NCBI RefSeq assembly: GCF_016924755.1 | Contig: NZ_JAFFJX010000010.1 | Coordinates: 1 to 64,000 of the forward strand | Direction of reading: 5' to 3' | Length of the DNA stretch: 64,000 nt | Origin: Longitalea arenae | Lineage (GTDB): Bacteria > Bacteroidota > Bacteroidia > Chitinophagales > Chitinophagaceae | Shown: in pieces, positions 9,425 to 62,508 of the stretch | Layout: each line of letters starts with the position of its first letter | Position numbering within the stretch: the stretch's first letter is position 1 | The notes under the pieces: model-generated | The model's input: only the letters and a program-made list of their open reading frames with translations | Database searches by the model: none | What the model was told of the DNA's origin: nothing | Translations under genes and position numbers: made by a program

Positions 9425-9553
9425 AAATGGGATAATTAGCCAATATGCTGATGTGCTAATGAATACAGTTGTATTTTATCAGCACATCAGCACATCAGCT
9501 AATCAGCACATCAGCCAATCAGCACATCAGCACATCAGCTAATCAGCAAATCA
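9425..9553. repeat. Word-repeat array between convergent genes (ttagc/cagcacat family)
   Basis: The left part reads ttagccaatatgctgatgtg, the centre aatacagttgtatt is a small palindrome, and the right part is many copies of cagcacat/cagctaat, the inverse of the left words. The transcript could fold on itself from either direction. The array supplies the fmt stop codon. Confidence 0.85.
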
Positions 9554-9554
9554 G

Positions 9555-10541
9555 CTAATTAGCCCTGTATCCCCTGAGAAACTCTTCCACCGTCATCTTC
9601 TTCTTTCCCTCGAGCTGCAATTCGGTAACATAGATGTAGCCGTCGGCGCCGGCGAATCTTAAAAAAGTCTTTTGATCGGTCTCGACACTGCCTGCTGTTT
9701 TGGGGGAACTATGCAGTTCCTTCTTGGCCTTATAAATTTTGAGCGTCTTATCGTTCAGGTAGGTAAAAGCTGCCGGGTAAGGGGATAAGCCCCGGATGAG
9801 ATTATAAATGGCTGCAACCGGTTGGTTCCAGTTGATCTTACAGGTTTCCGTGAAGATCTTGGGCGCATGTTTAATGGTTACACCATGGGTTGCCGCTTGT
9901 TCGCCGGTCAGGGGTAACGGGTTACAATCTTTTTGTGGTGTTCCAACCAGGGTCCCTTTTGCCAAACCCTCAACGGTTTTTACCAATAATTGTGCGCCGA
10001 TCTCTTTCATGCGGTCATGCACTTCACCGGCGGTCTCATCATCGGCGATGGGAAAGCTGGCCTGCATCAGGATGTCGCCGGTATCAATTTCATGTTGCAG
10101 TTTAAAAGTAGTAACGCCGGTCTCTTTTTCTCCATTGATCACGGCCCAGTTAATGGGTGCTGCCCCGCGGTATTGGGGCAGTAAAGAACCATGCAGGTTG
10201 ATGGTTCCCATGGGCGGCATATTCCATACCACCTCGGGCAACATGCGAAAAGCAACCACGATCTGCAGGTCGGCCTGTAAACTTTTGAGTGTTTCCAGGA
10301 AATCAGGATCTTTTAATTTCACCGGTTGCAGAACAGGTAACTGTTTTTCTACCGCATATTTCTTGACGGCGCTTTCCGTTAATTTCATGCCCCTGCCTGC
10401 CGGTTTATCGGGCGCAGTGATGACCGTTATGATATTACAACCGGCCTGTACCAATGCATCCAGGGAGGCAACGGCAAATTCAGGCGTGCCCATAAAGATA
10501 ATTCTGGGACTATTATTTGTGTATGCTTTGTTTTCTGCCAT
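9555..10541 (-). CDS. fmt: Methionyl-tRNA formyltransferase
   Basis: Formylates initiator Met-tRNA with 10-formyl-THF. The 328-residue product has the N-terminal Rossmann-type formyltransferase domain, FMGTPEFAVASLDAL, the catalytic-loop motif HGSLLPQYRGAAPINWAV, and the TGVTTFKLQHEIDTGDIL segment. A C-terminal OB-like domain follows (from about 210). The final residues and the TAG stop (A-N-stop) fall in the first words of the adjoining repeat array. There is a long word-rich region upstream (10553-10668). Confidence 0.95.
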   Translation of the reverse strand: MAENKAYTNNSPRIIFMGTPEFAVASLDALVQAGCNIITVITAPDKPAGRGMKLTESAVKKYAVEKQLPVLQPVKLKDPDFLETLKSLQADLQIVVAFRMLPEVVWNMPPMGTINLHGSLLPQYRGAAPINWAVINGEKETGVTTFKLQHEIDTGDILMQASFPIADDETAGEVHDRMKEIGAQLLVKTVEGLAKGTLVGTPQKDCNPLPLTGEQAATHGVTIKHAPKIFTETCKINWNQPVAAIYNLIRGLSPYPAAFTYLNDKTLKIYKAKKELHSSPKTAGSVETDQKTFLRFAGADGYIYVTELQLEGKKKMTVEEFLRGYRAN

Positions 10542-10552
10542 TTCTTATTTTA

Positions 10553-10670
10553 AGGTTCAGGTACAAGGTTTAAAATCAATAGGCAACGGGCAACAGGCAA
10601 GCTCGATGTTCAGCCGCTCCTGGCATTTGACAATTGGCAATGGCCAATTCATTTGCAAATGTCATTAAAA
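10553..10670. repeat. Word-repeat region upstream of fmt
   Basis: Contains ggttcaggtacaaggtttaa, ggcaacgggcaacaggcaa, and gacaattggcaatggccaatt. These are members of word families found elsewhere in the window (26560-26900, 29990-30130). Confidence 0.65.
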
Positions 10671-10830
10671 AACTTTTATTGGCTGCCCGAAATTAATCCT
10701 GTTACTTTGCAGCATAGGGAATTGGGCTTTTTTATCTGCTCGCTTCTGTTCATTTGAAAGGTCAAAAGCATGCTGCGATGTGGTTCAGACAGTTGGTTTC
10801 CTGATAAATTCTTAACACAAAAATGTTTGT

Positions 10831-11286
10831 ATGCAACAAGTAAAAAGCGGCGATACTGTAAAAGTTCATTATCATGGCCGTTTAACCGATGGCACCACCT
10901 TCGACACATCTGCCGGCCGCGAACCCCTGCAGTTTGAGGTTGGAAGCGGTATGGTGATTGCCGGTTTCGACAATGGGGTAATGGGAATGCATGTGGGTGA
11001 TAAAAAAACGATTCAAATCCCTGTAGAAGAAGCATACGGTCCTAAAAATCCAGATATGATCGTTGCCTTCCCTGTCAGCGAATTTCCCCAGGATATGGAG
11101 TTGGAAGTAGGCATGCGTTTGAATATGACCAATTCAGAAGGACATGTAATTCCTGTTGTGGTCACTGAGATCGGTCAGGAGAATGTAATGCTGGATGCTA
11201 ACCATCCCTTAGCCGGCGAAGACCTGGTATTCGATATTGAACTGGTTGAGATCGGAGCACCGCCTTCCCGCATCATTATGCCGTAA
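10831..11286 (+). CDS. slyD: FKBP-type peptidyl-prolyl isomerase, SlyD-like
   Basis: A cytoplasmic chaperone/prolyl isomerase. The 151 residues start VKSGDTVKVHYHGRLTDGTTFD, followed by PLQFEVGSGMVIAGFDNGVMGM, the FKBP core. An inserted IF (flap) domain of the SlyD type follows from about residue 70 (VEEAYGPKNPDMIVAFPVSEF to about 125), then the returning strand DLVFDIELVEI. The metal-binding His-rich tail of the E. coli protein is absent, as in many SlyD homologues. The gene is monocistronic, with a word-repeat inverted array directly behind its stop. Confidence 0.88.
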   Translation: MQQVKSGDTVKVHYHGRLTDGTTFDTSAGREPLQFEVGSGMVIAGFDNGVMGMHVGDKKTIQIPVEEAYGPKNPDMIVAFPVSEFPQDMELEVGMRLNMTNSEGHVIPVVVTEIGQENVMLDANHPLAGEDLVFDIELVEIGAPPSRIIMP

Positions 11287-11442
11287 ATACAGAAGTAAGA
11301 AATAAGCAGTAGGAAGTAAGAAGAACTTAAGTTTCTTACTTCCTATTTATTTTTTGTGCCCCTGCCTCACTTTGTTCTTCATACCTCTTGCCTCGTACAT
11401 CTTGCCTCGCAAGCCTGTAACCTCACGATATACCTGTTGCCG
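11287..11442. repeat. Word-repeat array after slyD (aagtaagaa family)
   Basis: agaagtaagaaataagcagt and aggaagtaagaag are followed by the inverse tttcttacttcctattta (hairpin 11288-11348). A second word group (cttgcctcgtacatcttgcc) runs to about 11440. The aagtaagaag words recur in frame inside prmC. Confidence 0.75.
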
Positions 11443-11530
11443 AAGTGCATCTTTACAACTATCCTTCGTAGTTTTCCTATCTTGACATGCCCGGCTTTTT
11501 TTTCTATTTTGCCGCGATAATTTATACCCT

Positions 11531-12190: not shown

Positions 12191-12194
12191 TTTG

Positions 12195-12360
12195 AGAATT
12201 CAAAGATTTAGCGATCTTGAGATTTCGGGATTTAGAGATTTTGGGATTTCGGGATTTAGAGATTTCGGGATTTTGAGATTTCGGGATTTAGAGATTTGGC
12301 GGAAAGTTCAAACCTGGGCAAATCGCAAAATCTCTAAATCTCAAAATCAGAAATCAGAAA
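12195..12360. repeat. Word-repeat array between convergent genes (gatttcgggatttag family)
   Basis: About a dozen words such as gatttcgggatttagagat run to 12300. They are answered by the inverse aaatctctaaatctcaaaat and aatcagaaatcagaaatcag. The inverse copies run into the stop codon of the minus-strand gene at 12361. Confidence 0.85.
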
Positions 12361-12912
12361 TCAGGCTTTCTTCCTTCCATAGAGCCAGCCCAGCCATATG
12401 CCCACCAGGGCCCACCCAACAATACAATCTATGAAATAGGCCATCAGGTCGAAGCCCTTGTACCAGATATGATTCGTATAAGGAATATTGAAGAAAACGA
12501 TCATGCCGACGAACAGGGCAGAAATAAAAATGGCGGTAAAGTTCAGCGCATTCATGCGGCTGATGATGGCGCAGAAAAAAGCTACGATCAACATATCTAC
12601 GATCAGCCCCCGGATCATGTTAGCGCCCATCGACATGTTGAACGACTGGTGATAGGTCACCATTGCCCAGGGCTTGCCTTCCATGGTCTTCATTAATTTT
12701 TCATGTTCTTCCATAGAAGCATCGGGTGGTAAAGAAGGCATCATGTACTGCCCTTCTTTATCGATCTGCGTGCTCAATGTGCTCATGATCGCATCCTGTT
12801 TGGGAGTATACTGGTAGGCGTTGTAATGCAGGTTCAGCACCATCCAGGAAAGAAATTGCCATATGAACAAAAGAATGCCGCCGACAAAGGCGCCAAGAAG
12901 TAATTTTTTCAT
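12361..12912 (-). CDS. Hypothetical membrane protein
   Basis: A 183-residue protein with an N-terminal hydrophobic segment (about 4-28), a hydrophilic stretch with a Met/Pro-rich loop (about 45-85), and three more likely membrane segments (about 100-120, 126-147, 155-178). It ends GRKKA. I do not recognise the family. The TGA stop lies inside the word ctgatttctga of the adjoining array. It is followed on the same strand, 59 bases upstream, by a CPBP-family protease gene, so the two may be co-transcribed. Confidence 0.65.
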   Translation of the reverse strand: MKKLLLGAFVGGILLFIWQFLSWMVLNLHYNAYQYTPKQDAIMSTLSTQIDKEGQYMMPSLPPDASMEEHEKLMKTMEGKPWAMVTYHQSFNMSMGANMIRGLIVDMLIVAFFCAIISRMNALNFTAIFISALFVGMIVFFNIPYTNHIWYKGFDLMAYFIDCIVGWALVGIWLGWLYGRKKA

Positions 12913-12971
12913 AAATGGGCCAGCTTTAGTTTGGAATAAGGTAGAAAGATTTATCCGATTTTACAAATATG

Positions 12972-13862: not shown

Positions 13863-13915
13863 AGGCTCATAAGTTGAAGCGATAATTGAGTTATCTTGCC
13901 AAAAATACAGCTTAC

Positions 13916-15160
13916 ATGTTTACCAATTATAGTTTTACCGTACGGGAAAGGTTTTTGCGATATGTACAGATAGACACGCAAAGTGATCCGCAATCTGCTT
14001 CCTGTCCCTCTACCGAAAAGCAAAAGGACCTGAGCCGTTTGCTGGTGCAGGAATTAAAGGCCATGGGGGTTGCCGATGCGGAGCTCGATGAGCATGGTTA
14101 TGTGTATGCCACCATTCCGGCAAATACGGCAAAGCAGGTGCCTGTTATTTGTTATTGCGCGCATGTTGATACGGCGCCTGATTGTACTGGACAGGGCGTA
14201 AAACCGATCGTACATTCCAATTATGATGGCGGCGATATTGTATTGCCCGACGACCCTTCGCAGGTTATTTCGCCCACGGATCATCCGTATTTGGGGAAGA
14301 AGAGAGGGGAGGATATTATTACCGCCAGCGGCACCACCCTGTTGGGCGCTGATGATAAGGCGGGTGTTGCGGTGATCATGGATATGGCACATTTTTTTAT
14401 GACCAACCCCGGCATTCCGCATGGCGCCATCAAGATCCTGTTCACACCTGATGAGGAAATAGGCCGCGGTGTAGATAAGGTTGATCTCAAAAAACTGGGT
14501 GCGCAGTTTGCATATACCCTCGATGCCGGCGAACGCGGCGCGTACGAAGATGAAACTTTTTCCGCCGATGGCGTTACGATCACCTTTCATGGAATAAGCG
14601 CCCATCCCGGGTATGCCAAGGATAAACTGGTGAATGCGATGAAAGTGGCGGCTGCTTTCCTGGAGTCATTACCAAAAGAGCTGTCGCCCGAAACAACGGA
14701 AAAACGCCAGGGCTTTGTGCACCCCGTTCGCATAAATGGCATTGCCGAGAAAGTGACGCTGGAATTCATCATCCGCGATTTTATTACCGCTAAACTCGCC
14801 GGCTATGAAGATCTGTTAAAGGAAAAGCTGGCATCGACCCTCCAACGTTTCCCCGGCGCAAAAGCCGATTTTGCGGTGAAAGAGCAATACCGTAATATGA
14901 AAGAAGTGCTGGATAAACATCCGCAGGTTTCAGCTTATGCAAAAGAAGCCATAAAACGGGCCGGTGTGCCATTGATCGAAATGAGCGCCCGGGGTGGAAC
15001 GGATGGATCGCGCCTGTCGTTTATGGGATTGCCCTGTCCGAACATTTTTACCGGTGAAATGGCTTTTCATGGCAAGCATGAATACGTGAGCGTTCAGGAC
15101 ATGCAGAAAAGTGTTGAGACGATCGTGCACCTGGCTTGTATCTGGGAGGAAACAACCTAG
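13916..15160 (+). CDS. pepT: Peptidase T (tripeptide aminopeptidase)
   Basis: A cytoplasmic M20 zinc aminopeptidase that removes the N-terminal residue of tripeptides. The 414 residues have the M20 ligand motif H83-x-D85 in YCAHVDTAPDCTG, the bridging Asp in LLGADDKAGVAV, and the catalytic Glu pair in FTPDEEIGRGVDK. Later ligands lie in DAGERGAYEDE, and the last His is in AFHGKHEYV. The frame is open upstream to a TTG at 13886. The ATG at 13916 gives the standard N-terminus and lies after a TAtcTTGc box at 13892-13899. Confidence 0.93.
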   Translation: MFTNYSFTVRERFLRYVQIDTQSDPQSASCPSTEKQKDLSRLLVQELKAMGVADAELDEHGYVYATIPANTAKQVPVICYCAHVDTAPDCTGQGVKPIVHSNYDGGDIVLPDDPSQVISPTDHPYLGKKRGEDIITASGTTLLGADDKAGVAVIMDMAHFFMTNPGIPHGAIKILFTPDEEIGRGVDKVDLKKLGAQFAYTLDAGERGAYEDETFSADGVTITFHGISAHPGYAKDKLVNAMKVAAAFLESLPKELSPETTEKRQGFVHPVRINGIAEKVTLEFIIRDFITAKLAGYEDLLKEKLASTLQRFPGAKADFAVKEQYRNMKEVLDKHPQVSAYAKEAIKRAGVPLIEMSARGGTDGSRLSFMGLPCPNIFTGEMAFHGKHEYVSVQDMQKSVETIVHLACIWEETT

Positions 15161-15248
15161 GATTTTGGGATTGCGGGATTTAGAGATTTCAGGATTGGAG
15201 GATTGCGGACAAAATCTCAAAATCTCGAAATCGGGAAATCGGGAATTT
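15160..15248. repeat. Word-repeat array between pepT and the OmpA-family gene
   Basis: gattttgggattgcgggatt and similar words are followed by the inverse aaatctcaaaatctcgaaat. This is the same family as 12195-12360. It starts one base after the pepT stop. Confidence 0.8.
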
Positions 15249-15253
15249 TGTTT

Positions 15254-16393: not shown

Positions 16394-16407
16394 GTGACCG
16401 GTTGGTA

Positions 16408-16500
16408 GCGAGCCCATTGCCCATTGCCCATTGCCCATTGCCTATTGCTCATTGCCCATTGCCCATTGCTCATTGCCTATTGCCCATTCACCATTCACCA
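16408..16500. repeat. Word-repeat array (attgcccattgcc family)
   Basis: Roughly ten copies of ttgcccattgcccattgc-type words with c/t changes, ending in cattcaccattcacc, the inverse of the ggtgaatgg words seen at 26534. It lies between convergent genes. Confidence 0.85.
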
Positions 16501-16505
16501 AAAAA

Positions 16506-16529
16506 GCCACCGAATTTTACTCCGATGGC
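16506..16529 (-). terminator. Hairpin terminator of the T9SS cargo gene
   Basis: gccaccg pairs with cgatggc (one mismatch). On the minus strand the hairpin is followed by six T residues. Confidence 0.5.
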
Positions 16530-16557
16530 TTCTTTCATCCCACATGGTGGTACGGTT

Positions 16558-19322: not shown

Positions 19323-19327
19323 TATGC

Positions 19328-19335
19328 CAAAGTTA
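19328..19335 (-). promoter_or_regulatory. -7 box of ypdA, five bases from the start codon
   Basis: On the minus strand TAacTTTG is followed by gcata and the ATG. The arrangement points to a leaderless mRNA. No convincing -33 TTG is visible. Confidence 0.5.
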
Positions 19336-19384
19336 ATTCTTAGTCTTTTAGTTGCGTTTGTCTTAGTTCAGGGCCCAGTCTCCT

Positions 19385-19560
19385 GAGGTAAGTTACCTGT
19401 CGCCGGTTACCGGTTGCCAGTCGCCGGAAAAGCCGGCTACGACTGAAAAAAGCTACCTTGTAAAACCAAAAGAACCATGCCATGGTTCAGGCTTTCATTG
19501 TTTGGGCGGCGATTGGCAAAGCGCCGGTAACCGGAAACCGGCAACCGGCGGCTTTTTATA
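19385..19560. repeat. Word-repeat array (accggttgcc family) between divergent genes
   Basis: cgccggttaccggttgccag is on the left and gccggtaaccggaaaccggc on the right, inverse to each other, with a loop containing aaagctaccttgtaaaacc. It lies upstream of both ypdA and the SPFH gene. Confidence 0.8.
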
Positions 19561-19612
19561 ATTTGCAAATCTTCCCTTTTCACGCTACTTTCATTAATTA
19601 AAATTTAATCTT

Positions 19613-21452: not shown

Positions 21453-21854
21453 ATGAGTATAAGAAGAAGACTTAGAACACATGGAGAGATGCATGCAGGA
21501 GCCTTGAATGATATCCTGTTCATCCTGTTGTTCTTCTTCCTTATTGTATCAACCCTGGCCAATCCGAATGTGATCAAGCTGTCGCAGCCAAAGGCCAAAA
21601 GTGATACAAAAGCCAAACAAACGGTAATCGTGAATATAAAACCTACCGGGGAATATATCATCAACGGTAAACAGATCAGTATTGAAGAAATGAGGACCTT
21701 CATTCAGCCTTATGTGCAGAAAGATTCAACGCAGGCAACAATAGCGATCAATGCCGATAAAACCGTTCCGCTCGAGAATGTAGTGGCGGTGATGCGCGTA
21801 GCCCGCGATCTCGGTGCACGATCAACGCTGCTGGTAGACACGAAGGTCAATTAG
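21453..21854 (+). CDS. exbD: ExbD/TolR-family biopolymer transport protein
   Basis: A 133-residue protein with one N-terminal membrane segment (about 20-40). The conserved Asp is in LNDILFILLFFFLIVS; this is the proton-carrying residue of the family. A periplasmic domain follows (KLSQPKAKSDTKAKQTVIVN ... INADKTVPLENVVAVMRVAR). It is co-transcribed with exbB. The last codon and the TAG stop (N-stop) are the first bases of a 49-bp tandem word array. No TonB gene is adjacent. Confidence 0.88.
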   Translation: MSIRRRLRTHGEMHAGALNDILFILLFFFLIVSTLANPNVIKLSQPKAKSDTKAKQTVIVNIKPTGEYIINGKQISIEEMRTFIQPYVQKDSTQATIAINADKTVPLENVVAVMRVARDLGARSTLLVDTKVN

Positions 21855-22067
21855 CTGATTAGCTGATGTGCTGATTTGCTAATGAATACAAAAACAGAAT
21901 TAGCTGATTAGCTGATGTGCTGATTTGCTAATGAATACAAAAACAGAATTAGCTGATTTGCTGATGTGCTGATTTGCTAATGAATGCAAAAAACATAACT
22001 AAATGATGCTCGATTATCGGAACTGTATTTCCATTAGCACATTAGCATATTAGCAAATTAGCACATT
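21851..22067. repeat. 49-bp tandem word array plus inverse partner between exbD and prmC
   Basis: Units starting ttagctga lie at 21851, 21900 and 21949, exactly 49 bases apart, and end gctaatgaatacaaaaacag (the third is a variant). After a spacer the inverse words ccattagcacattagcatat and tagcaaattagcacatt run to 22067. The right part encodes the last five residues and the stop of prmC. Confidence 0.9.
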
Positions 22068-25707: not shown

Positions 25708-26538
25708 ATGGGTCGGTTTATTATAATAATATTCCTTCATATCATATTGCTCATAGCCTGTAAGCAGGGAAATGGACCATGGGGCAAGAGCAAAACAAAA
25801 GATACATTATCAGTACACACCGTTCCTTATGAAGTGTTGCGAAGTAAGGCGATGGATAGTGCTGAACAAATGTCTTTTTTCACAGATTACTGCATCCGAA
25901 AACTCGAAAGCCATAAAGGGAGCGACCGCTTTTATACCTTAGCCGTTTTTGACGGTGATACCACCAAAGTACAATTCTGCAGAGGAAATATCTGTAGCAG
26001 TCAAAAGCAGCATGCCATAGTTGGTTTTGCCAATAAGAACCTTTTTTTCTTCTTTCTTAAAAATGATAGCTGGACTTTACGGCAGGTTATGCATGGTTTT
26101 GGTGTCATTAAAGACAGCGCCCTGCAATTTGCAGATGTCAATTTTGATGGCTATAAAGATCTTTCCATCGTCTGGAATTATTCTGCAGGCTCCTGTAGTT
26201 GCACGGCGCCCGGTTGCAGGGATCTGTATTTATACAACAGTGAAAGAGACAAGCTGGTACATATACCCGAAATAAGATCTTACTTTGACTTCGGGTTTTC
26301 CGCAGAAGAGCAGTCGATTTACCTGGGCGAGCATTGCAAAGGTTTTTATGGAAAATTCATCTGGCAGGATGGGCGATTACAGATCCAGGAAGAATACATT
26401 TCCAATCAATATGGTGAAGCCGATAGCAGCCGCTGGCACCTGGAACATTTTATCTATTGCAATGGTGAACGGGTTCCGGCCTATACAATCCCCAATTTAC
26501 CCCTGCCGGAAAAATGGCAAAGACAGTTTGGATGGTGA
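25708..26538 (+). CDS. Hypothetical lipoprotein with FG-GAP/XAC2610-like repeat motif
   Basis: A 276-residue protein with a lipoprotein signal (lipobox LIAC, Cys18). Residues about 140-160 read FADVNFDGYKDLSIVWNYS, an Asp-rich calcium-binding turn as in FG-GAP and XAC2610-like proteins. A Cys-rich stretch (SCSCTAPGC) follows, then a region SIYLGEHCKGFYGKFIWQDG. The function is not known. The TGA stop is embedded in the first word (ggatggtgaatgg) of a long repeat array. Confidence 0.65.
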   Translation: MGRFIIIIFLHIILLIACKQGNGPWGKSKTKDTLSVHTVPYEVLRSKAMDSAEQMSFFTDYCIRKLESHKGSDRFYTLAVFDGDTTKVQFCRGNICSSQKQHAIVGFANKNLFFFFLKNDSWTLRQVMHGFGVIKDSALQFADVNFDGYKDLSIVWNYSAGSCSCTAPGCRDLYLYNSERDKLVHIPEIRSYFDFGFSAEEQSIYLGEHCKGFYGKFIWQDGRLQIQEEYISNQYGEADSSRWHLEHFIYCNGERVPAYTIPNLPLPEKWQRQFGW

Positions 26539-26985
26539 ATGGTCAATGGTGAATGGTGGGTTGTGCGTGTTGCAAGTTCCAGGTTGCAGGTTACAGGGCC
26601 TGCGCGGCAACCGGTGACTGGTGAATGGTCAATGGTGAATGGTCAATGGTGAATGGTGAAAAGGGATCGCTCTATTGTAAGTTGTGCTTGTTTCAAGTTG
26701 CAGGTTACAGGGCCTGTGCGGCAACCGGTGACTGGTGAATGGTCAATGGTGAATGGTCAATGGTGAATGGTCAATGGTGAATACAGATGCCTCTGTTGTG
26801 CGTTGTGCGTGTTGCAAGTTCGTTACAGAGCCTGTGCGGCAACCGCTAGCCGGTAACTAACCTTGTAACCTGTAACATGTAACCTGTAACATGTAACCTG
26901 TAACCTGTATTCTGTATTTCCCGGCAACCGGTAACCGGTAACTGGTAACCGGCAACCGGTAACTAACCATGTACCTGTAACCATC
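26534..26985. repeat. Composite word-repeat array with a higher-order period of about 114-118 bp
   Basis: A block made of ttgcaagtt/ggttgcaggttacag, then ggcctgcgcggcaaccggtg, then several aatggtgaatggtc words occurs three times; the ttacag landmark lies at 26591, 26705 and 26823. After it come tgtaacatgtaacctgtaac words and accggtaaccggcaacc words to 26970. It fills the gap between the convergent lipoprotein and hydroxyacyl-CoA dehydrogenase genes. Confidence 0.9.
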
Positions 26986-27868
26986 AAAGAAACCGCTCAC
27001 TCACAACCAGGTCCTTACTACCTGCCGAGTACTTATAAAACCCTTCACCACTCTTTACCCCCAGATAACCGGCCGTAACCATATTGGTGAGCAGGGGACA
27101 GGGCGCATATTTCTGATTACCGAACCCTTCATACAACACGTTTAAGATGGCATGACAGGTGTCGAGCCCAATGAAATCGGCCAGTTGCAGCGGACCCATC
27201 GGGTGGGCCATACCCAGTTTCATGATGGTGTCAATTTCCTGCACGCCGGCAATGCCTTCATACAAACTGTAGATCGCTTCATTGATCATCGGCATCAGGA
27301 TGCGGTTGGCTATAAAGCCGGGATAATCGTTTACCACGCAGGGCACTTTACCCAGTTGTTTACTCAATGCCACAATGGTGTCGGTAACTGTTTGGGAGGT
27401 GGCATAACCGTTAATGATCTCTACCAGTTTCATCACCGGCACCGGGTTCATGAAATGCATGCCGATCACCTGACCGGGCCTTTTGGTAACCGCTGCAATG
27501 CGGGTAATGGAAATAGAGGAGGTATTGGTTGCAAGCACTGCCTGTGCGGGCGCCAGCGCATCGAGCTGTTTAAAGATGTTTAGTTTGAGCTCGATATTTT
27601 CAGTAGCTGCTTCAACGATCAGTTCAGCTTCCTTTACACCCTGCACCAGGTCGGTATAGGTGGTCAGCTGTGCAAGGGCTTTGTTCTTTTGTTCCTCTGT
27701 AGCTGCGCCTTTGGCGATCTGGCGGTCGAAATTCTTTTGAATGGTTTGAATGGCTTTTTCCAGTTGAGCGGCATGTACGTCAATAAGATTTACGGTAAAA
27801 CCATTCTGTGCAAAAACGTGCGCAATACCATTGCCCATAGTACCCGCCCCAATGACAGCAATATTCAT
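26984..27868 (-). CDS. 3-hydroxybutyryl-CoA (3-hydroxyacyl-CoA) dehydrogenase
   Basis: Oxidises 3-hydroxyacyl-CoA with NAD(P)+. The 294-residue single-domain type has IAVIGAGTMGNGIAHVFAQ at the N-terminus, the serine and catalytic-His region NTSSISITRIA and GMHFMNPVPVMKLVEII, and the C-terminal dimer domain with ANRILMPMINEAIYSLYEG. The length matches stand-alone Hbd/PaaH enzymes. The region immediately before the ATG is a word array (ttagcatattagcaaatt, tatcacatt), so its promoter must lie in or beyond repeat DNA. It could act with the glutaryl-CoA-type dehydrogenase at 54324. Confidence 0.9.
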   Translation of the reverse strand: MNIAVIGAGTMGNGIAHVFAQNGFTVNLIDVHAAQLEKAIQTIQKNFDRQIAKGAATEEQKNKALAQLTTYTDLVQGVKEAELIVEAATENIELKLNIFKQLDALAPAQAVLATNTSSISITRIAAVTKRPGQVIGMHFMNPVPVMKLVEIINGYATSQTVTDTIVALSKQLGKVPCVVNDYPGFIANRILMPMINEAIYSLYEGIAGVQEIDTIMKLGMAHPMGPLQLADFIGLDTCHAILNVLYEGFGNQKYAPCPLLTNMVTAGYLGVKSGEGFYKYSAGSKDLVVSERFL

Positions 27869-27905
27869 AATGTGATAATTTGCTAATATGCTAATTTGCT
27901 AATCA
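27869..27905. repeat. Word-repeat stretch abutting the hydroxyacyl-CoA dehydrogenase start
   Basis: taatttgctaatatgctaat words begin within a base of the ATG complement at 27866-27868. This is the same family as 21851-22067. Confidence 0.75.
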
Positions 27906-28089
27906 AAAACAATTACTCATTAGGCTAAAGATAATGTACTTACACGAAAACTAACAAATGTTTGCCTGTATAACAAAACCTGTACACGAGAAATTATGAG
28001 CGGCGGTATAGCTGGCATCGCCCTGCGTTAGCAAGGGCTAAGTTTATGCCTGATAAATAAGGCTGCTGAAATTGATCGCACGTCTAGAA

Positions 28090-28141
28090 ATGGAGCCATC
28101 AGCACATCAGCAAATCAGCACATTAGCAAATCAGCAAATTG
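28090..28141. repeat. Word-repeat stretch after the regulatory-domain gene
   Basis: cagcacatcagcaaatcagc and cattagcaaatcagcaaatt run up to the stop codon of the minus-strand gene at 28142. Confidence 0.75.
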
Positions 28142-32017: not shown

Positions 32018-32085
32018 TAGTTTAAGTTCACAGTTCATAGTTCAAAGTTCATTAGTTATTAAGTGCATAAGTTCTTAAGTTAAAT
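32018..32085. repeat. Word-repeat stretch (agttcatagttc family)
   Basis: agttcacagttcatagttca, aagttcattagttatt and aagtgcataagttcttaagt. The inverse of the same words occurs at 51812-51840. Confidence 0.65.
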
Positions 32086-45700: not shown

Positions 45701-46208
45701 CCTTACCGGTGGTTGGTTGAACAGCTTCAGCTACAAGGATTTCACCCTGAGCGTATTCATTACGTACCAGGCTGGTAATAAGATCAGGTTATATCCTGCC
45801 TTTAGGAATAGCTATTCAGACCTGGATGCCATGCCCAAAGAGTTTTATGACCGGTGGACCATGCCCGGCGATGAGCAATTCACTACGGTTCCTTCGATCC
45901 TGGGTGCTTTCGAGCAGTCGAAACTGGGAGGTTCTACCCCTTATAACAACTACAACTATTCAACCGCGCGCGTGGCCAATGGCGATATGATCCGGTTAAA
46001 GAATGTGTCGTTCACCTGGCAGGTGCCTATCAGAATAATCAAGAAGATCGGCCTCAATAGCCTGGCTTTGCAGGCGGTGTCGAATAACCCCTGGCTGATC
46101 TATTCTGATAAAAAGTTAAAGGGACAGGATCCTGAATTTTTCAATACCGGTGGTATTGCCCAGCCCGTTCAGAAACAGTTTACGTTCTCATTAAAACTGG
46201 GAGTATAG
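42798..46208 (+). CDS. SusC/RagA-family TonB-linked outer-membrane receptor
   Basis: A 1136-residue outer-membrane transporter that imports a ligand captured by its SusD partner, using TonB energy. It has a signal peptide (ending about residue 38, ITHAS) and a CarboxypepD_reg-like domain (about 50-125: VRGKVSGTEEGGVLPQVSVQ). The plug follows (about 135-250: SEVIVTGFQTIEKKKFAGAA, SRMLEGRAAGVSVQN, ASAAALYGARAMNGVVVITT), then the barrel to the end (KQFTFSLKLGV). The CarboxypepD_reg domain is degenerate compared with typical SusC proteins. The frame is open to 42714, but that region overlaps a hairpin; ATG 42798 is chosen. It is the first gene of a four-gene operon. Confidence 0.92.
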   Translation: MRFMQNAFEAKAVQTGCKRLLMVVVVAGCLPLITHASDFPDHINNTRFFQDTTLVRGKVSGTEEGGVLPQVSVQNLVSGRGTFTNTQGEFAIGVRRGDSIRFSYTGKAPQTIIYRGERFMEVFMSEGGKALSEVIVTGFQTIEKKKFAGAAATVKMDDAKLSGQTDISRMLEGRAAGVSVQNVSGTFGTAPKVRVRGATSINGDNKPLWVVDGVVLEDIVNISNDQLSSGDPTTLLGSAVAGLNANDIESFDILKDASAAALYGARAMNGVVVITTKRGRAGKPNVNYIGNFSTYLKPNYRDFNIMNSAQQMSVLAELERKGMLNANILDRGDNGVYGKMYELLNEPLPDGSGFVLPNTQASRKAFLTRYAQANTDWFDLLFRNNFTQEHSLSISAGTDRSQSYFSTSYYGDNGWTIADKVSRYTLNFRNNYKFNDKLSADFTTVGSMRSQKAPGALSRNSNPVDGSYDRDFDINPFSYALNSSRTLTAFDGNGNREYFRRNFAPFNILTELENNYMDLKVYDLRLQGSLNYKITPELRYEFVGALRFVKSSREHQITESSNMANAYRSAKTSTIRANNRFLYRDPENPNAEPVVVLPYGGFYNRVEDQLLNYDFRNSLNYNKTFNDVHTITALVGQQVKYADRQQFNNTGYGYQYENGGVPFIDYRILKQTIELNFPYYGMSKDYDRFVAFYGSGTYTYNSRYNLTATVRYDGSNRLGKSRNARWLPTWSVAGSWNVEQERFMENLAWVDALTVRASYGLTASMGPATNSSIVLKNINTNRTYLTERESVIQLANLENSELTWEKLYTTNLGVDATMLNRRLNVSVDVYNRNSFDLISLVKTSGVGGEPYKAANYADMESQGVELLVGYLVLNNKNFKWRTNLTAGYNTNKITNARNEPLIWDLVAAEGGNKQGYPVRSLFSIDFKGLEHFTGTPQFVDETGKVGNNVYLQDQNTNFLVYEGPVDPRLTGGWLNSFSYKDFTLSVFITYQAGNKIRLYPAFRNSYSDLDAMPKEFYDRWTMPGDEQFTTVPSILGAFEQSKLGGSTPYNNYNYSTARVANGDMIRLKNVSFTWQVPIRIIKKIGLNSLALQAVSNNPWLIYSDKKLKGQDPEFFNTGGIAQPVQKQFTFSLKLGV

Positions 46209-46296
46209 TTCATTAGTTCATAAGTTAATAAGTTAATGAGTTAAAATGACTAAGGAACTGAATAACTAAAGGACTTAATTAACTAAATAACCGAAT
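46206..46296. repeat. Word-repeat array between SusC and SusD genes
   Basis: The words ttcattagttcataagttaa and aagttaatgagtt are followed by partly inverse aactgaataactaaaggact and taattaactaaataacc. The SusC stop TAG is in the first word. Confidence 0.75.
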
Positions 46297-50432: not shown

Positions 50433-51653
50433 ATGAAAAAAATTACATTTCTTGCTTTTTTACTATTTTGTGGCACTACGTATGCTCAAGATTATGTTTA
50501 TACAATTGATTTATCTTATGACCAGTCTTTAAGCACTACTGCCTGTAATGTGTTTGCAACCACCACGAAAGTTGATAATTTAAATCATAAAACGACGATC
50601 GGATTTCCAACGTTTGTTGGTAATCCTGATTACTACATTAATCTTCCATGTCGGCAGATTTCTTCTACAGTAGCTGTAGGGACAGAGTACCAGATTTTGT
50701 TCCCATTTAAGGCTGGTAATACCTATGAGATAACAGCACTTTATAGAGGAGTTCGAGCTGGTAATGAAATTTTTCCAAACCTGGCGTTTGGTTTTAATGA
50801 AACAGAAAAAACACATAATACTTCTACTTCTTGTACTGGACCTCAAGCAGTAAACTTAGCTGACTATAATTTTATAGCAGCTTCAGGAGCCTCCTTTTCG
50901 TGGTTAGCAGATGATAGAACTTGCAAAACGGGTGTACTTACTAAAAGTTATGCATCTTTATCTGTCGCAGCGGTGCCTTTCAGCTTAAGTCCTAGTGCTG
51001 CTTCAGTTCAGGTCAGGACCATCCAAATAAGAGAATGGTGTAATCAGCCTGCGCTTGGAGCCGCTTCGGGTTTAACTGGCACGTTGACTGTCACAACGCC
51101 ACCCGCTTACGGTTATACATTAAATTTTAACCCTGTTCCTGGTGCTGAAGAATACTTAGTTGAATGGTATGATGTTACGAACAGTGCATTGGCCGGTACA
51201 TTTACTATTAGTGGACCTGGTTATTTAAATACAGCTAATATTATATCAGGGCATACCTATAGATACAGAGTACAAGCCAAAGCCCATTGCCGGTCGACCG
51301 CCGCTTTTTCTGATTGGTCACCAGAACTCCCTCCTCTTGGAGCTACCTGCGAATATGGACCCTTACCTAGTACCCTCGGGTTTACATTGCAGTGTTATGG
51401 TTGTACAACATTTAATTTGCATTGGCCTGCTGTACCGGGAGCTGTGAATTATAAAGTTGAATATACTGTTTTTCAACCATCAGGGATTCTAAAACACCCA
51501 GCGACTGTCTACACCACTGGCACATCAATTAATGCTTCGACGACTATCTTACTAGGTTCAAATTGGCACATGATTTACAGAGTAGCGGTGGATTGTGGTT
51601 CCGGATTCGGTAGTTTCAGTGATTACTCTCCAACCTACCTTCTGAAACCTTAA
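50433..51653 (+). CDS. Secreted protein with two Fn3-type domains, A+T-rich
   Basis: A 406-residue protein with a signal peptide (about 1-18, ending TYAQ). The N-terminal domain (20-205) is unrecognised, beta-rich and contains several Cys. Two fibronectin type III-like domains follow (about 215-305: YGYTLNFNPVPGAEEYLVEW ... TYRYRVQAKAHC; about 310-406: FNLHWPAVPGAVNYKVEYTV ... YRVAVDCGSGFGSFSDYSP). No T9SS sorting domain follows; the protein stops at the last strand. The codon third positions are much richer in A/T than in the neighbours, which suggests later acquisition. It has its own terminator. Confidence 0.78.
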   Translation: MKKITFLAFLLFCGTTYAQDYVYTIDLSYDQSLSTTACNVFATTTKVDNLNHKTTIGFPTFVGNPDYYINLPCRQISSTVAVGTEYQILFPFKAGNTYEITALYRGVRAGNEIFPNLAFGFNETEKTHNTSTSCTGPQAVNLADYNFIAASGASFSWLADDRTCKTGVLTKSYASLSVAAVPFSLSPSAASVQVRTIQIREWCNQPALGAASGLTGTLTVTTPPAYGYTLNFNPVPGAEEYLVEWYDVTNSALAGTFTISGPGYLNTANIISGHTYRYRVQAKAHCRSTAAFSDWSPELPPLGATCEYGPLPSTLGFTLQCYGCTTFNLHWPAVPGAVNYKVEYTVFQPSGILKHPATVYTTGTSINASTTILLGSNWHMIYRVAVDCGSGFGSFSDYSPTYLLKP

Positions 51654-51692
51654 GGTTCTTTTGTTACTTTAATATTAATAATGTTATTTGAT

Positions 51693-51726
51693 ATAAAGGC
51701 TCCAAGCAAGGAGCCTTTATTTTTTA
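51693..51726 (+). terminator. Intrinsic terminator of the Fn3-type gene
   Basis: ataaaggctcc pairs perfectly with ggagcctttat around aagcaa, followed by tttttt. Confidence 0.85.
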
Positions 51727-51811
51727 AGAACGGGCCCCTGTTCAGGCGAACCCGACCAGGAGGCACCGTTGTAGAGAGTCTCGACTCTGCTGACTGCAGC
51801 TTTGATTAATT

Positions 51812-51840
51812 TAAGAACTATGAACTTTGAAATATGAACT
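51812..51840. repeat. Short word stretch (gaactatgaac family)
   Basis: agaactatgaactttgaaat and atgaact are the inverse of the agttcatagttcaaagttc words at 32026-32052. Confidence 0.6.
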
Positions 51841-52846
51841 AAATTCTAACAGTCCCTTTTTTGCTTTTGTCTTTGTCCTTATCCTTCTTATCGTCCTTGT
51901 TCATATTAATGTTCAGGTTATGGCCGATGGTGATCTTACCGAATTCTGATTTGATCTTCATGGCCATATTACCACTGCCTGCTTTGCCAATGTATTTTTT
52001 ATCGAAGCGCGGGCCATGGTCATCATTGTCTTCATTCTCTTCTTTTATCTCGAAGCTTGTTTGATTTTTAAGGTCGCCGAAATGCGTGCGGATATCAAAG
52101 TTGGCAGAAATATTATTCTCTACGTCAAGGTAGAGATTCGAAAAGCTGTTCTTTACCGTAAGGGTTTTGGTATCGTTGGCTACGCCCAGTTTAACCACAT
52201 CACAATGTTCAAATACTGCATTTACTGCGCCGTCGAGATTGTCGATACTGACCTTGGAGAATTTAACTACAAGACTACCGCTGCTGATACTGCCGATAGT
52301 GCCTTTGCCAAATTCAATTTCCACTTTCTTTACATGGGCCAGCTTGCCGGCGGTTAAGCTGCCAAACTTGCTTTCAAGCGATATTTCACCTTGATAGTCG
52401 CCGATACTCATGGGGCCAAACTGGTTCTCTGCCACCAGGGCGTTCCGTGCCGGCACATAGATGACATAGTCAATATGAAAGCTTTGTTTTTCGCCTTTGC
52501 TCCATTTGGCGTCTTTCTTTTTATCGAATTTTGTTTCAAAGTATACGCCGCCGCTGTTTTTACCATCTTCGATGCTGATATGATCGAGGATCGCCTGTGC
52601 CTTTTCATCGGTGCTGGCTTCGGCGGTGATGTTCACTGTAGCTTTTACTTCATTTTTATCCCAGGTATTTATCTGCATTTCGCCGAACTGGTTCTTGAAA
52701 GAGATCTTATCGCTGCCGCTTACGTTATAGGATTTGGTATAGGTTTTCTTTTTTTCTACCAAAGGGTCTCCTGCAAATAACTGTACCGTTGGTATCAGGC
52801 AGGTAATGAGTAAAAGGGTGCTATATCTTTTTAAATTGGCTGTCAT
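51839..52846 (-). CDS. Exported DUF4097-like (putative adhesin-type) beta-strand protein
   Basis: A 335-residue protein with a signal peptide (about 1-26, ending LFAG). The body is regular short beta repeats (SLESKFGSLTAGKLAHVKKV, KFSKVSIDNLDGAVNAVF, MKIKSEFGKITIGHNL), the look of DUF4097/head GIN-domain solenoids. The C-terminal tail is Lys/Asp-rich (NKDDKKDKDKDKSKKG). The ATG at 52846 is chosen over a GTG at 52855. It overlaps the upstream anti-sigma candidate by 26 bases, so the ECF sigma, anti-sigma and this gene form one operon. Role unknown, possibly the output or sensor of the envelope-stress circuit. Confidence 0.75.
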   Translation of the reverse strand: MTANLKRYSTLLLITCLIPTVQLFAGDPLVEKKKTYTKSYNVSGSDKISFKNQFGEMQINTWDKNEVKATVNITAEASTDEKAQAILDHISIEDGKNSGGVYFETKFDKKKDAKWSKGEKQSFHIDYVIYVPARNALVAENQFGPMSIGDYQGEISLESKFGSLTAGKLAHVKKVEIEFGKGTIGSISSGSLVVKFSKVSIDNLDGAVNAVFEHCDVVKLGVANDTKTLTVKNSFSNLYLDVENNISANFDIRTHFGDLKNQTSFEIKEENEDNDDHGPRFDKKYIGKAGSGNMAMKIKSEFGKITIGHNLNINMNKDDKKDKDKDKSKKGTVRI

Positions 52847-54054: not shown

Positions 54055-54290
54055 ATGTTGCATGGCAAACCATGTTTGTTTGTGGTTTGTGGTTTACGGG
54101 TTTATGGTTGCTGCCGCGCTGTGAAGCGGTTGACCGGTTTCAAAATACTGGTTATCAGCCGAGGAGCTGGTGCCGGAAAATGAGGGGTGACGAATGAAAT
54201 AACCACAAACAACAAACTACAAACCATAAACCTGCCCCCTTTTTCATTAGCAAATCAGCACATTAGCGTATTAGCAAATTAGTTTTTCTT
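54055..54290. repeat. Word-repeat array (gtttgtggtttatgg family) between divergent genes
   Basis: catgtttgtttgtggtttgt and ggtttacgggtttatggtt are answered by aaccacaaacaacaaactac and aaaccataaacc. Next come ttagcaaatcagcacattag words to 54285. No gene in the gap. Confidence 0.8.
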
Positions 54291-56029: not shown

Positions 56030-56417
56030 AGGTTTTTTACTAACGGCCGCCATCCTGGGTGCACTGGCCGTAGCCCTTGGCGCTTTTGGCGCACATGGCT
56101 TAAAGAAAATTGTTCCGCCCGAAACCGTTACTACCTTTGAAACCGGGGTGCGTTATCAATTCTACCATGTATTTGCATTATTGGCCGTAGCTATCTTATT
56201 TGGAAGCTTCCCCGGCAAGAATCTGCAATACGCAGGCATCTGCTTCATCGTTGGAATAATATTGTTCTCAGGCTCTTTATATGTGTTAACCGCATTACAG
56301 GCTACAAAAACAGTGGGCCTGCGCGGCATAGGCGCCATCACGCCTATTGGGGGGGTATTCTTTATTGTAGGCTGGATCTTTCTGTTCCTGGCAATTCTAA
56401 AGAAAGGCAGTGTATAG
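56022..56417 (+). CDS. DUF423 membrane protein
   Basis: A 131-residue protein with four hydrophobic segments and the DUF423 signature at the start: LGALAVALGAFGAHGLKKI, then FETGVRYQFYHVFALLAVA, and GLRGIGAITPIGGVFFIVGW. Homologues are small inner-membrane proteins (YgdD-like) of unknown function. The frame is open to 55998, but the ATG at 56022, overlapping the aroK stop by eight bases, gives the family start. The TAG stop begins the word tatagtttatcgtttgtgg. Confidence 0.85.
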   Translation: MHKGFLLTAAILGALAVALGAFGAHGLKKIVPPETVTTFETGVRYQFYHVFALLAVAILFGSFPGKNLQYAGICFIVGIILFSGSLYVLTALQATKTVGLRGIGAITPIGGVFFIVGWIFLFLAILKKGSV

Positions 56418-56562
56418 TTTATCGTTTGTGGTTTATCGTTTATGGTTCTTAAACGCCGTTGGCTAATTTCTTAAGAATCCTGGGAATTGCTGAGGCCGGC
56501 AACTAATAGTGAAGCCCGAACGCCGGCCTAACCACAAACCACAAACAATAAACCACAAACCT
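56415..56562. repeat. Word-repeat array (gtttgtggtttatcg family) between convergent genes
   Basis: tttatcgtttgtggtttatc on the left, the inverse aaccacaaaccacaaacaat and aaaccacaaacc on the right, with a G+C-richer loop between. It abuts both stop codons. Confidence 0.85.
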
Positions 56563-58546: not shown

Positions 58547-58616
58547 AAAGTGCCCCGGTTTGCACCGGGAAGCGTTAGTTTCGAAGGGTGAATGTACGAA
58601 AAAAGCACAATGTGCT

Positions 58617-58760: not shown

Positions 58761-58800
58761 AAACTTAACAATTCTCATAGGTGTGAACCCATCTTATACT

Positions 58801-58832
58801 TTGATCCTTATTCCCTAAACTACTTATCTTTG
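58801..58832 (+). promoter_or_regulatory. ftsK promoter with box five bases from the start codon
   Basis: TTG at 58801-58803, then 21 bases, then TAtcTTTG at 58825-58832; the ATG is at 58838. Both elements fit the Bacteroidota consensus and predict a transcript starting at or near the ATG. Confidence 0.65.
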
Positions 58833-58837
58833 CGAAC

Positions 58838-61393: not shown

Positions 61394-61455
61394 GGTTACA
61401 GTTTTGTTAATATAGCGCTGATTTACAACCCGGGGTAACATTTCGCGTCTTATTA

Positions 61456-61486
61456 TTGCCGCTAAAGCTTATAACTAATATCTTTG
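61456..61486 (+). promoter_or_regulatory. lolA promoter
   Basis: TTG at 61456-61458, then 20 bases, then TAtcTTTG at 61479-61486, the best match to the Bacteroidota consensus in the window. Predicted transcription starts near 61493. This rules out the in-frame start at 61456. Confidence 0.7.
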
Positions 61487-61515
61487 CGGCCTTTACCCAA
61501 AGAATAATGCATATA

Positions 61516-62169
61516 ATGAAAAGCCTAATTGTATTTATAACTACTTTTTTTATAGCTACTATAAGTTTTAGTCAACAAAGCGATCCCGCTGCCAAAAAAG
61601 TACTGGATGCAGTAAGCGCCAAGTTCAAAACGTTTAAATCGGTTCAGGCCAGCTTTACCCTGCGTAATGAGGATAGTAAGGGCACTTTGCTCGGAACTAA
61701 AAAAGGTACTGCTTCGCTGAAAGGCGCCCGCTACCGGGTTAGCATTGCGGGAACCGGTCAGGAAGTTTTCTGTGATGGCGCCAATATCTGGACCTACGAT
61801 AAATCAGCCAATGAAGTAACGATCACCAAACCCGATAATTCTGCCAATACCATCACCATGCAGAAGCTGTTCACCAATTTTTATGATAAGGATTTCCTGT
61901 ACAAGCTGAATGGCGACAAAAAGGTGAACAACAAATCGGTTCAGGAAATTGAAATGACGCCGGTTGATAAAACCAAGCCTTTTCATAAAGTGTATCTGCT
62001 GGTTGACAAGAACAGCAAGACCATCTACAGCACGCGCATTCTCGATAAATCAGGCGCCGTAATGGTATATACCGTAAATACCATGAATGGTACTGCCAAC
62101 CTGCCCGATAATCTCTTTGTATTTGATAAAAGCAAATACCCGGGGGTAGAGGTCATTGATTTAAGATAG
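61516..62169 (+). CDS. lolA: Outer-membrane lipoprotein carrier protein LolA-like
   Basis: A periplasmic carrier that ferries lipoproteins from the inner to the outer membrane. The product has 217 residues from ATG 61516, with a signal peptide (MKSLIVFITTFFIATISFSQ). The LolA fold is seen in FKTFKSVQASFTLRNEDSKG, GTASLKGARYRVSIAGTGQE, VFCDGANIWTYDKSANEVTI, and YSTRILDKSGAVMVYTVNT. The frame is open to 61456, but the promoter occupies that stretch. An ATG at 61507 would add three residues. It is separate from ftsK, with its own promoter. Confidence 0.88.
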   Translation: MKSLIVFITTFFIATISFSQQSDPAAKKVLDAVSAKFKTFKSVQASFTLRNEDSKGTLLGTKKGTASLKGARYRVSIAGTGQEVFCDGANIWTYDKSANEVTITKPDNSANTITMQKLFTNFYDKDFLYKLNGDKKVNNKSVQEIEMTPVDKTKPFHKVYLLVDKNSKTIYSTRILDKSGAVMVYTVNTMNGTANLPDNLFVFDKSKYPGVEVIDLR

Positions 62170-62194
62170 AAACTGATAGCGATACTGCTTACGG

Positions 62195-62508
62195 TTTAAT
62201 TTATAAGTTACAGGTTACAGGTTCCAGGTTACAAGGGTATAACACCCTGCAACTTGCAACTTGTAACCTGTAACGTTTAACGCAGATTTCAGGTTCAGGT
62301 TACAAGGGTCAAAGCTCCGCAACCTGAAACTTGTAACACTTTACACCAATCCTTATTACAGGAACTGTATTTCATTATCAAATTATCGAATTATCACATT
62401 ATCACATTAGCTACAGGAACCGTATTGCATTATCAAATTATCGAATTATCACATTAGCTACAGGAACTGTATTTCATTATCACATTATCGAATTATCACA
62501 TTATCACA
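62195..62508. repeat. Long mixed word-repeat array between lolA and ubiX
   Basis: aagttacaggttacaggttcc is answered by acttgcaacttgtaacctgt (62205-62340). Then three composite units start acaggaac at 62358, 62413 and 62460 and continue gtatttcattatcaaattatc, with cgaattatcacatt words to the ubiX stop. Confidence 0.9.

Follow-up and report, generated by a model that had tools for sequence, protein, structure and literature searches.

What are the short, irregularly repeated words that stand between genes in the opening 64,000 bases of the 206,917-base contig C40 of Longitalea arenae (genome 7.28 Mb), the stretch referred to here as the window, and why do the gaps retain them? They are dispersed short tandem arrays, whose unit is fixed at 7 or 8 bases and whose words come from many interchangeable families, and they are characterized by this step length, a preference among gap types, a strand polarity, the keeping of a site while its words turn over, and the likeness of neighboring words. 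The host falls in the Niastella/Longitalea group of the Chitinophagaceae, its FtsK sharing 92% identity with the Longitalea luteola protein and 86-88% with those of five Niastella records. We analyzed the window, the remainder of C40 and 1.2 Mb from other contigs of this genome, together with syntenic stretches of five congeners totaling 1.0 Mb. To these were added 80 named loci from the ftsK neighborhood of related genomes and, from elsewhere in the class, 19 stretches of more distant genomes, 14 of which were chosen through a word match. Genes were called with a small custom hexamer-based caller that trimmed some starts, and one missed window gene was entered manually. A recount without runs of N left the gap counts the same and shifted the word-identity means by at most 0.02.

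The initial annotation of the window had proposed counting gap words against a shuffled background. Near-matches, defined as 10 of 12 bases identical at a given lag, occurred in 305 gaps of the window and 400 kb of contig C22 at 16.1/kb for lag 7 and 10.6/kb for lag 8, compared with 0.07-0.15/kb and 0-0.03/kb, respectively, in two dinucleotide shuffles, which rule out chance or composition as the source, and with 0.26/kb and 0.06/kb in coding DNA. Lags 6, 9 and 10 each gave less than 0.6 near-matches per kb of gap, and peaks also appeared at multiples of 7 and 8. Scored as arrays, a 1.264 Mb sample of the genome held 229 at lag 7 and 145 at lag 8 in gaps, densities of 1182 and 748 per Mb of gap that exceed the next most frequent lag (67-98 per Mb at the seven other lags from 4 to 12) by 12-fold and 8-fold and coding DNA (31 and 36 per Mb) by 38-fold and 21-fold. 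The word length first given as 7-12 bases therefore stands for 7 and 8, with their multiples, and not for 9-12. Across the 80 related-genome loci, 1717 positions fell at lag 7 and 475 at lag 8, against 20-112 at lags 5, 6 and 9-12, so that the arrays are at least family-wide; their distribution is patchy, some loci having none. No known Rfam RNA family matched the window at the curated gathering score.

Within the window, a looser threshold placed an array in 19 of the 43 gaps that measure at least 20 bases and covered 1,403 of 9,359 gap bases; the words had been described as occupying nearly all intergenic space, and they do recur in many gaps but fill only this part of it, to which degenerate words below the threshold (e.g., 11291-11346) would add. 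At a stricter score, arrays stood in 7 of 8 convergent, 5 of 28 tandem and 2 of 8 divergent gaps, where shuffles predict 0-0.1. The seven convergent gaps reproduce the count in the initial annotation, and at the looser threshold all eight pass, the one at 51654 by the 22 bases of a short word stretch that accompanies an ordinary terminator, as had been described. Likewise borne out, far above shuffles, were the irregular arrays at the sites first listed: the inverted arms in six convergent gaps were confirmed by eye, and the array at 16408-16500 is chiefly one-directional. The arrays and the elements beside them, most gaps having been read by eye, are as follows.

9432..9461, plus strand: G-rich arm of GCTGATGT/GCTAATG words, 8-nucleotide (nt), read by eye, after the LysM-protein gene in the convergent gap 9381-9554.
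9477..9562, plus strand: C-rich arm of ATCAGCAC/ATCAGCTA/ATCAGCAA words, 8-nt, entering the 3' end of the formyltransferase (Fmt-like) gene.
12204..12297, plus strand: G-rich arm of GATTTAGA/GATTTCGG words, 8-nt, in the convergent gap 12191-12360.
12320..12364, plus strand: C-rich arm in the same gap, AAATCTCA (8-nt) and then AAATCAG (7-nt).
15160..15208, plus strand: G-rich array of GGATTTAG/GGATTGCG words in a tandem gap, beginning at the stop codon.
16412..16500, plus strand: C-rich array of GCCCATT (7-nt) with CACCATT at its end, in the convergent gap 16394-16557.
About 16500-16535: ordinary hairpin directly after the preceding array.
19323..19612, no strand: divergent gap with CCGGTTGC/GGCAACCGG words.
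21849..21992, plus strand: G-rich arm of GCTGATTA/GCTGATGT words with ATGAATACAAAAACAG links, beginning at the stop codon of the ExbD-family gene and carrying 2.9 copies of a 49-bp higher-order unit.
22032..22067, plus strand: C-rich arm of CATTAGCA words adjoining the 3' end of the PrmC-like gene.
26532..26845, plus strand: G-rich arrays of GGTGAAT/GGTCAAT and GTTRCAG, 7-nt, with a 114-bp higher-order repeat, in the convergent gap 26539-26983.
26858..26963, plus strand: C-rich arrays of TAACCTG and CCGGTAA/CCGGCAA, 7-nt, in the same gap.
27868..28139, plus strand: tandem gap with G-rich 8-nt GATAATTTGCTAATATGC on the left and C-rich ATCAGCAC/ATCAGCAA on the right.
32023..32081, plus strand: AAGTTCA/TAAGTTCA array, 7/8-nt, in a tandem gap.
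46207..46244, plus strand: AGTTAATA array, 8-nt, running from a stop codon in a tandem gap.
51654..51838, no strand: convergent gap with the ordinary terminator at about 51695-51726 and a short GAACTAT array near 51815-51841.
54074..54282, plus strand: divergent gap with GTTTGTGG words, then C-rich AACCACA (7-nt) and ATTAGCAA (8-nt).
56413..56447, plus strand: G-rich arm of GTTTATGG/GTTTATCG words, 7-nt, from the stop of the DUF423 gene.
56530..56561, plus strand: C-rich arm of AACCACA, 7-nt.
62207..62237, plus strand: G-rich arm of GTTACAG, 7-nt, after the LolA-family gene.
62245..62274, plus strand: C-rich partner arm of CTTGCAA/CTTGTAA/CCTGTAA, forming with the preceding arm a predicted hairpin of -39 kcal/mol.
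62357..62511, plus strand: C-rich arrays of ATTATCAA/ATTATCAC, 8-nt, with a 47-bp higher-order repeat and TACAGGAACTGTATTTC links, preceding the 3' end of the flavoprotein (UbiX-like) gene.

AATACAG/CTGTATT links are seen between arms or between arrays of unlike families, for example at 9460-9477, 21880-21895 and 62357-62385. AATACA lies on the inner side, within 50 bases, of 37 of 351 arrays, which makes it a weak junction motif.

The vocabulary is larger than the roughly eight families first supposed. The 229 lag-7 arrays use 80 distinct units in 35 clusters and the 145 lag-8 arrays use 55 units in 27 clusters, giving 62 clusters among 374 arrays, 12 of them with nine or more arrays. Leading 7-nt families are AACCTGT/AACCGGT, AATGGTG/C, AATGGGC, AAACCAC and AAAGTTC, and leading 8-nt families are ACATCAGC/ACATTAGC and GAGATTTT; they partly intergrade through single base changes. 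The G-rich strand of the arrays is also C-poor (28% G, 12% C), and runs of four G are absent from the leading clusters, most of which lack even a run of three. This variety at different loci is, as the initial annotation held, unlike a single family of repetitive extragenic palindromic (REP) sequences or bacterial interspersed mosaic elements (BIMEs).

Convergent gaps are preferred, in line with that annotation: in L. arenae and the five congeners, whose shared ancestry makes pooled counts and species pairs non-independent, arrays occupied 154 of 262 convergent, 340 of 976 tandem and 79 of 287 divergent gaps. The ranking recurred at 77 other loci (42/137, 105/498 and 23/214, respectively), a set that omits three loci duplicating genomes G007, G003 and G004 and still contains a few other Niastella records. 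An array touched the stop-codon region in 339 of 1842 genes, with the coding strand G-rich in 277, C-rich in 52 and neither in 10, and the stop codon itself lay inside the array in 107 of the 339. Stop codons were in phase with the words in 22 of 130 cases against 4% expected; this phase is not special, because stop triplets within gaps and followed by arrays gave 207 of 644.

When strand class was assigned to each array as G minus C on the plus strand, a strong polarity emerged. Two opposed arms in simple order ran G-rich 5' to C-rich 3' in 176 of 192 gaps of the six species, 11 gaps of more complex order being excluded, with G-first to C-first ratios of 95:10 in tandem, 59:6 in convergent and 22:0 in divergent gaps. 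Simple patterns in L. arenae alone gave 40:5, the 77 other loci gave 39:2, and the 19 class stretches gave seven GC and four GCGC orders against no CG, 14 of these stretches having been placed on a word match. G-then-C reads identically from either strand. Adjacent arrays were G-first at 107:11 when of the same family, 69:15 when of different families and 19:6 when intermediate. Single arrays followed suit, with 57 G-rich and 39 C-rich in the left half of tandem gaps and 11 and 71 in the right, 30 and 7 against 8 and 25 in convergent gaps, and 13 and 6 against 7 and 15 in divergent gaps; a strong inverted partner accompanied 77 of 230 single arrays on their inner side and 14 of 138 on their outer side.

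Three possible sources of this order were rejected. A general hairpin polarity would not produce it, since among short hairpins (stems of 7 or more, loops of 3-12) those of array-free convergent gaps lean the opposite way (24 C-first, 9 G-first) and those of coding DNA are neutral (268:263). Replication-strand bias is excluded by near-equal numbers of G-rich and C-rich arrays on the plus strand (492 and 487), whatever the contig skew. A general gap skew is too small, running from +0.07 to -0.06 in array-free convergent gaps compared with +0.30 to -0.25 in array gaps; a skew of the same sign of about 0.1 in array-free divergent gaps and on the start-codon side of tandem gaps may contribute to polarity there. 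Because hairpin order, gap skew and replication strand do not give it, we conclude that polarity is a property of the arrays.

The initial annotation had named arrays identical in sequence and position across distant relatives as an outcome that would count against it; among the relatives compared here, position tends to persist and sequence much less. In congeners, the counterparts of the convergent window gaps variously hold related or unrelated arrays or plain terminators, or are almost absent. The gap at 26539, for example, carries GGTGAAT, GTTACAG and CCGGTAA words in L. arenae; G006 has GTTGTTCA words there, G002 has short AACTCAAT/AACTGAAC words that fall under the detection threshold, and G004 has 4 bases only. 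Across as many as 147 orthologous gaps, co-occupancy was higher than expected for gaps of equal length in all 15 species pairs (e.g., 30 observed against 20.4 expected between L. arenae and G004), with permutation values from 0 in 2000 permutations to p = 0.02. Family sharing at co-occupied gaps drops as species diverge: L. arenae had the same family as G007 in 46 of 60, G003 in 23 of 52, G002 in 11 of 30, G004 in 7 of 30 and G006 in 6 of 14. After removal of gaps with related families, the occupancy excess was kept in all 15 pairs and reached p < 0.05 in eight of these non-independent pairs. Eight of 35 window gaps were never occupied in six genomes, and their length is nearly constant (median coefficient of variation 0.07, compared with 0.29 for gaps occupied in three or more of the six); because never-occupied gaps vary so little in length, constraint is part of array placement.

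Within arrays of five or more units, mean identity between neighboring words was 0.85 for 7-nt and 0.83 for 8-nt words and decayed with distance to 0.79 and 0.66, respectively; neighbors are most alike, which is what slippage predicts. The initial suggestion of local, self-templated growth is thereby upheld as regards slippage-like extension, but it does not cover words that recur at many loci. The 14-mer ATCAGCACATCAGC is matched exactly 150 times in the genome, some matches overlapping, and is present in 21 of 149 class genomes, L. arenae included, against 2 for its backward control; the distant genome G074 has 28 copies, and two of its arrays adjoin gene ends by eye. The corresponding signals for TGTAACCTGTAACC (8 against 5) and AATGGTGAATGGTC (15 against 8) are weak. 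In two-arm gaps, the partner arm was the best match in 15 of 96 (3 expected), and in the median gap it was equalled by 12% of other gaps. Since the same words recur genome-wide and arms are rarely mutual best matches, we infer that copying between sites must be part of array spread. Fold-back copying of a whole arm region was considered too, and the inner flanks of the arms were not convincingly mirrored (p = 0.25 for 146 elements; p = 0.03 for the 81 with same-family arms). Spread by viruses is made unlikely by the lack of any exact match to a 22-base ATCAGCAC array, the one word searched, in a viral contig collection.

From these observations we tentatively favor, short of even odds, a reading in which arrays made by slippage and dispersed through the genome are kept as exchangeable 3'-end hairpins. 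DNA slippage in steps of about 7-8 bases would lengthen and shorten the arrays, point mutation followed by re-amplification would give rise to new families, and ectopic copying would carry words from gap to gap. Arrays would survive where a gap is otherwise unconstrained, chiefly right behind stop codons, and there a G-rich arm 5' and a C-rich arm 3', often of one family, would form long hairpins at transcript ends. The paired-arm layout would then outweigh word identity, and the hairpins are the most likely cause of gaps retaining arrays despite word change; candidate roles are termination, 3'-end protection or mere insulation of converging transcription. The gap between lolA and ubiX may illustrate such a role. 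A GTTACAG hairpin of -38 to -44 kcal/mol is predicted there in L. arenae, G007, G001 and G002, the word hairpins being long mixed stems with no U run, and by eye these four genomes have no intrinsic terminator, which is present in the other six of ten genomes. In this gap G006 carries a CATATGA-centered palindromic unit instead of word arrays, with about nine copies at a spacing of roughly 20 bases. Among tandem gaps of 100-400 bases, terminators were found in 22 of 249 with arrays and 72 of 352 without (p = 9e-5).

Several results weigh against a 3'-end function. Rarer terminators in tandem array gaps could reflect constraint on the terminator-bearing gaps, and in convergent gaps the deficit was weak, 26 of 146 with arrays and 29 of 103 without (p = 0.06), or 21 of 122 and 14 of 49 (p = 0.14) in those of 100-400 bases. 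In orthologous gaps, terminators were no rarer in the species with the array (fewer in 13 gaps, more in 10, tied in 55; p = 0.68); because this comparison is flat, the terminator replacement at lolA-ubiX may be a single case. Array-free convergent gaps also fold almost as strongly as those with arrays (median z of -2.7 against -3.2 and -3.8; up to 22 gaps per class). Polarity holds in divergent gaps as well, where a 3'-end role does not apply, and the arms of one gap, mostly of one family, are yet not specially alike, while 69 G-first pairs combine different families. The role in 3'-end formation or transcript protection proposed at the outset is thus plausible and unproven, and from this mixed terminator and folding evidence exchangeable 3'-end hairpins remain our preferred account, with neutral slippage as the nearest contender.

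A neutral or mildly selfish slippage process, in which a replication or repair bias fills unconstrained gaps and both the hairpins and the gap preference are by-products of tolerance, is a real though somewhat less probable possibility. The near-constant length of never-occupied gaps would place arrays simply where length is free, and the likeness of neighboring words, the lack of net replication-strand bias and the absence of terminator loss within orthologous gaps all agree with it. Slippage alone, however, does not yield the G-first polarity or its reversal relative to ordinary hairpins, nor does it lead unlike families to re-occupy the same gaps beyond what gap length predicts. Polarity is the point from which a different mechanism starts, namely that arrays are added on G/T-rich 3' ends at intergenic breaks or collapsed forks and then joined, by telomere-like addition or by RecA-driven copying from other arrays through about 8 nt of microhomology. 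The G-rich strand does run inward from both edges in all gap types, also with unlike-family arms, and independently of transcription direction and replication strand, and RecA prefers GT-rich DNA and 8-nt microhomology. No enzyme was identified and no break junctions were seen, though, and slippage already accounts for the higher-order repeats and neighbor likeness, whereas many families would need many templates or donors; we consider the mechanism improbable. That the polarity itself is the footprint of broken or forked ends, extended on the G/T-rich 3' strand by irregular 7-8-nt words, much as in yeast-type telomere repeats or in RecA-driven copying from other arrays, and rejoined, is a slightly slimmer prospect; gene ends would then be repeatedly capped with interchangeable words. 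To our knowledge no such DNA-end process is known in bacteria.

Binding of sequence-specific regulators, which the accessible parts of PMC2700814 (7/8-mers of Geobacter metallireducens) and PMC4679880 (TAACTGA of Beggiatoaceae) propose for comparable repeats, would have to accommodate congeners that carry different word families at the same gap, a preference for the 3' end over the promoter side and divergent gaps that are the least occupied, and we regard it as unlikely. REP and REPIN elements are conserved palindromic sequences tied to their own transposase. Movement of the arrays as an element of REP/REPIN or miniature inverted-repeat (MITE) type by a Y1 transposase (REP-associated tyrosine transposase, RAYT) has the lowest standing of these accounts. 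Y1_Tnp matches number one to three in each of ten genomes of the genus, L. arenae included, with one strong match per genome, and a two-arm AATGGTC/CACCATT array fills the gap directly upstream of the strong Y1_Tnp gene of L. arenae. Against this stand the many unrelated families served by so few Y1 genes and the absence by eye of a target-site duplication in the 23 gap pairs inspected among 29 presence/absence pairs of L. arenae and G007, intergenic alignment being poor at that distance. G017 has no Y1 match at E<=0.001 and yet carries a two-arm array, which together with the low Y1 gene number makes a single RAYT unlikely as the driver.

The Y1_Tnp (RAYT-like) protein of L. arenae, of 142 aa, is encoded beyond the window at C40:99265-99693 (L192); the strong match and the ubiX-like gene share a contig in seven of ten genomes, 37-41 kb apart, and are on different contigs in G001, G008 and G009. 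Inside the window, 200-420 holds a 42-bp tandem repeat in 5.3 copies (TGTTTCAAATTTGTACGGCATGGTTTGCAATTGCAAACGGGG) with a GTTTGCAATTGCAAAC palindrome, of a kind distinct from the word arrays. A 406-aa open reading frame at 50433-51653, next to the convergent gap with the ordinary terminator, had no Pfam match at E<=1e-5 and no ortholog in the syntenic stretches of the five congeners.

One genome group displays a general system with a fixed step, many words, a strong polarity and gaps re-used by different words. Two questions become testable with it: what fixes the 7-8 base step by which bacterial repeats grow, and whether a structure of exchangeable sequence can serve gene ends. The word-array layer can also confound intergenic comparison and the prediction of promoters and terminators in such genomes.

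Compared with known systems, the arrays share parts with several, each described here from the accessible portions of the papers cited. The heptamers GGGAATC and GGGGA(T/C)T of Xanthomonas and Nostoc (PMC4692102) are likewise 7-nt, intergenic and dispersed; they lie between convergent genes in 16% of cases and between divergent genes in 7-8%, differ in length and sequence among close relatives, and include 70 and 75 two-array cases in convergent orientation on opposite strands. These pairs have the same order as ours if their G-rich strands face each other, and inverted pairs with converging G-rich strands are what we find in most two-arm gaps of simple order. Their G-quadruplex-type word has no counterpart in our leading clusters, and they differ from the dozen large clusters, the coexistence of 7- and 8-nt units and the replacement of families at the same gap described here. 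G. metallireducens (PMC2700814) has several families per genome (GTTGCTYN, TWGTTGAY, MTYCTGA) of 7 and 8 nt in paired arrays on opposite strands, as here, but its families are small (e.g., 48 and 16 aligned sequences), some are read as regulator sites, and the accessible text offers no analysis of polarity, gap type or the conservation of sites. The TAACTGA direct repeats of Beggiatoaceae, cyanobacteria and some Bacteroidetes (PMC4679880) resemble ours in being heptamer arrays, mostly intergenic and phylogenetically patchy, with relatives lacking the array in the same neighborhood, and two Bacteroidetes have other heptamer repeats in the TAACTGA gaps; in BOGUAY, however, they consist of one word, mostly right upstream of start codons in one orientation with a single inverted case. 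Calothrix (via PMC4692102) has several tandem heptanucleotides in one genome, as here. Heptamer repeats in the papers cited are mostly one word per genome (PMC4692102, PMC4679880).

REP/BIME and REPIN elements with RAYT (PMC2817692, PMC3116915) are also dispersed extragenic repeats, often alternating or inverted, but have one conserved palindromic unit in place of the many clusters seen here. Prokaryotic long simple sequence repeats (5-11 nt) show the same intergenic 7-nt excess, to which these genomes add a sharp 8-nt class; their near-perfect head-to-tail copies are replaced here by words that alternate and mutate. Beside the GC-rich stem and U run of intrinsic terminators, the word hairpins at lolA-ubiX have long mixed stems and no U run, and array polarity runs opposite to that of the short hairpins in array-free convergent gaps. 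The accessible text of a survey of prokaryotic repeats (PMC4060949) has nothing specific to these arrays. In the open-access literature searched, with subscription literature mostly outside the search, we found no account of a multi-family layer or polarity in Chitinophagaceae and no precedent for a fixed 7/8 step over many families or for family replacement at kept sites. Heptamer arrays and paired 7/8-mer arrays are therefore already known, and the comparison suggests that the new side of the L. arenae arrays is a common step over many families, their polarity and the replacement of words at sites that persist.

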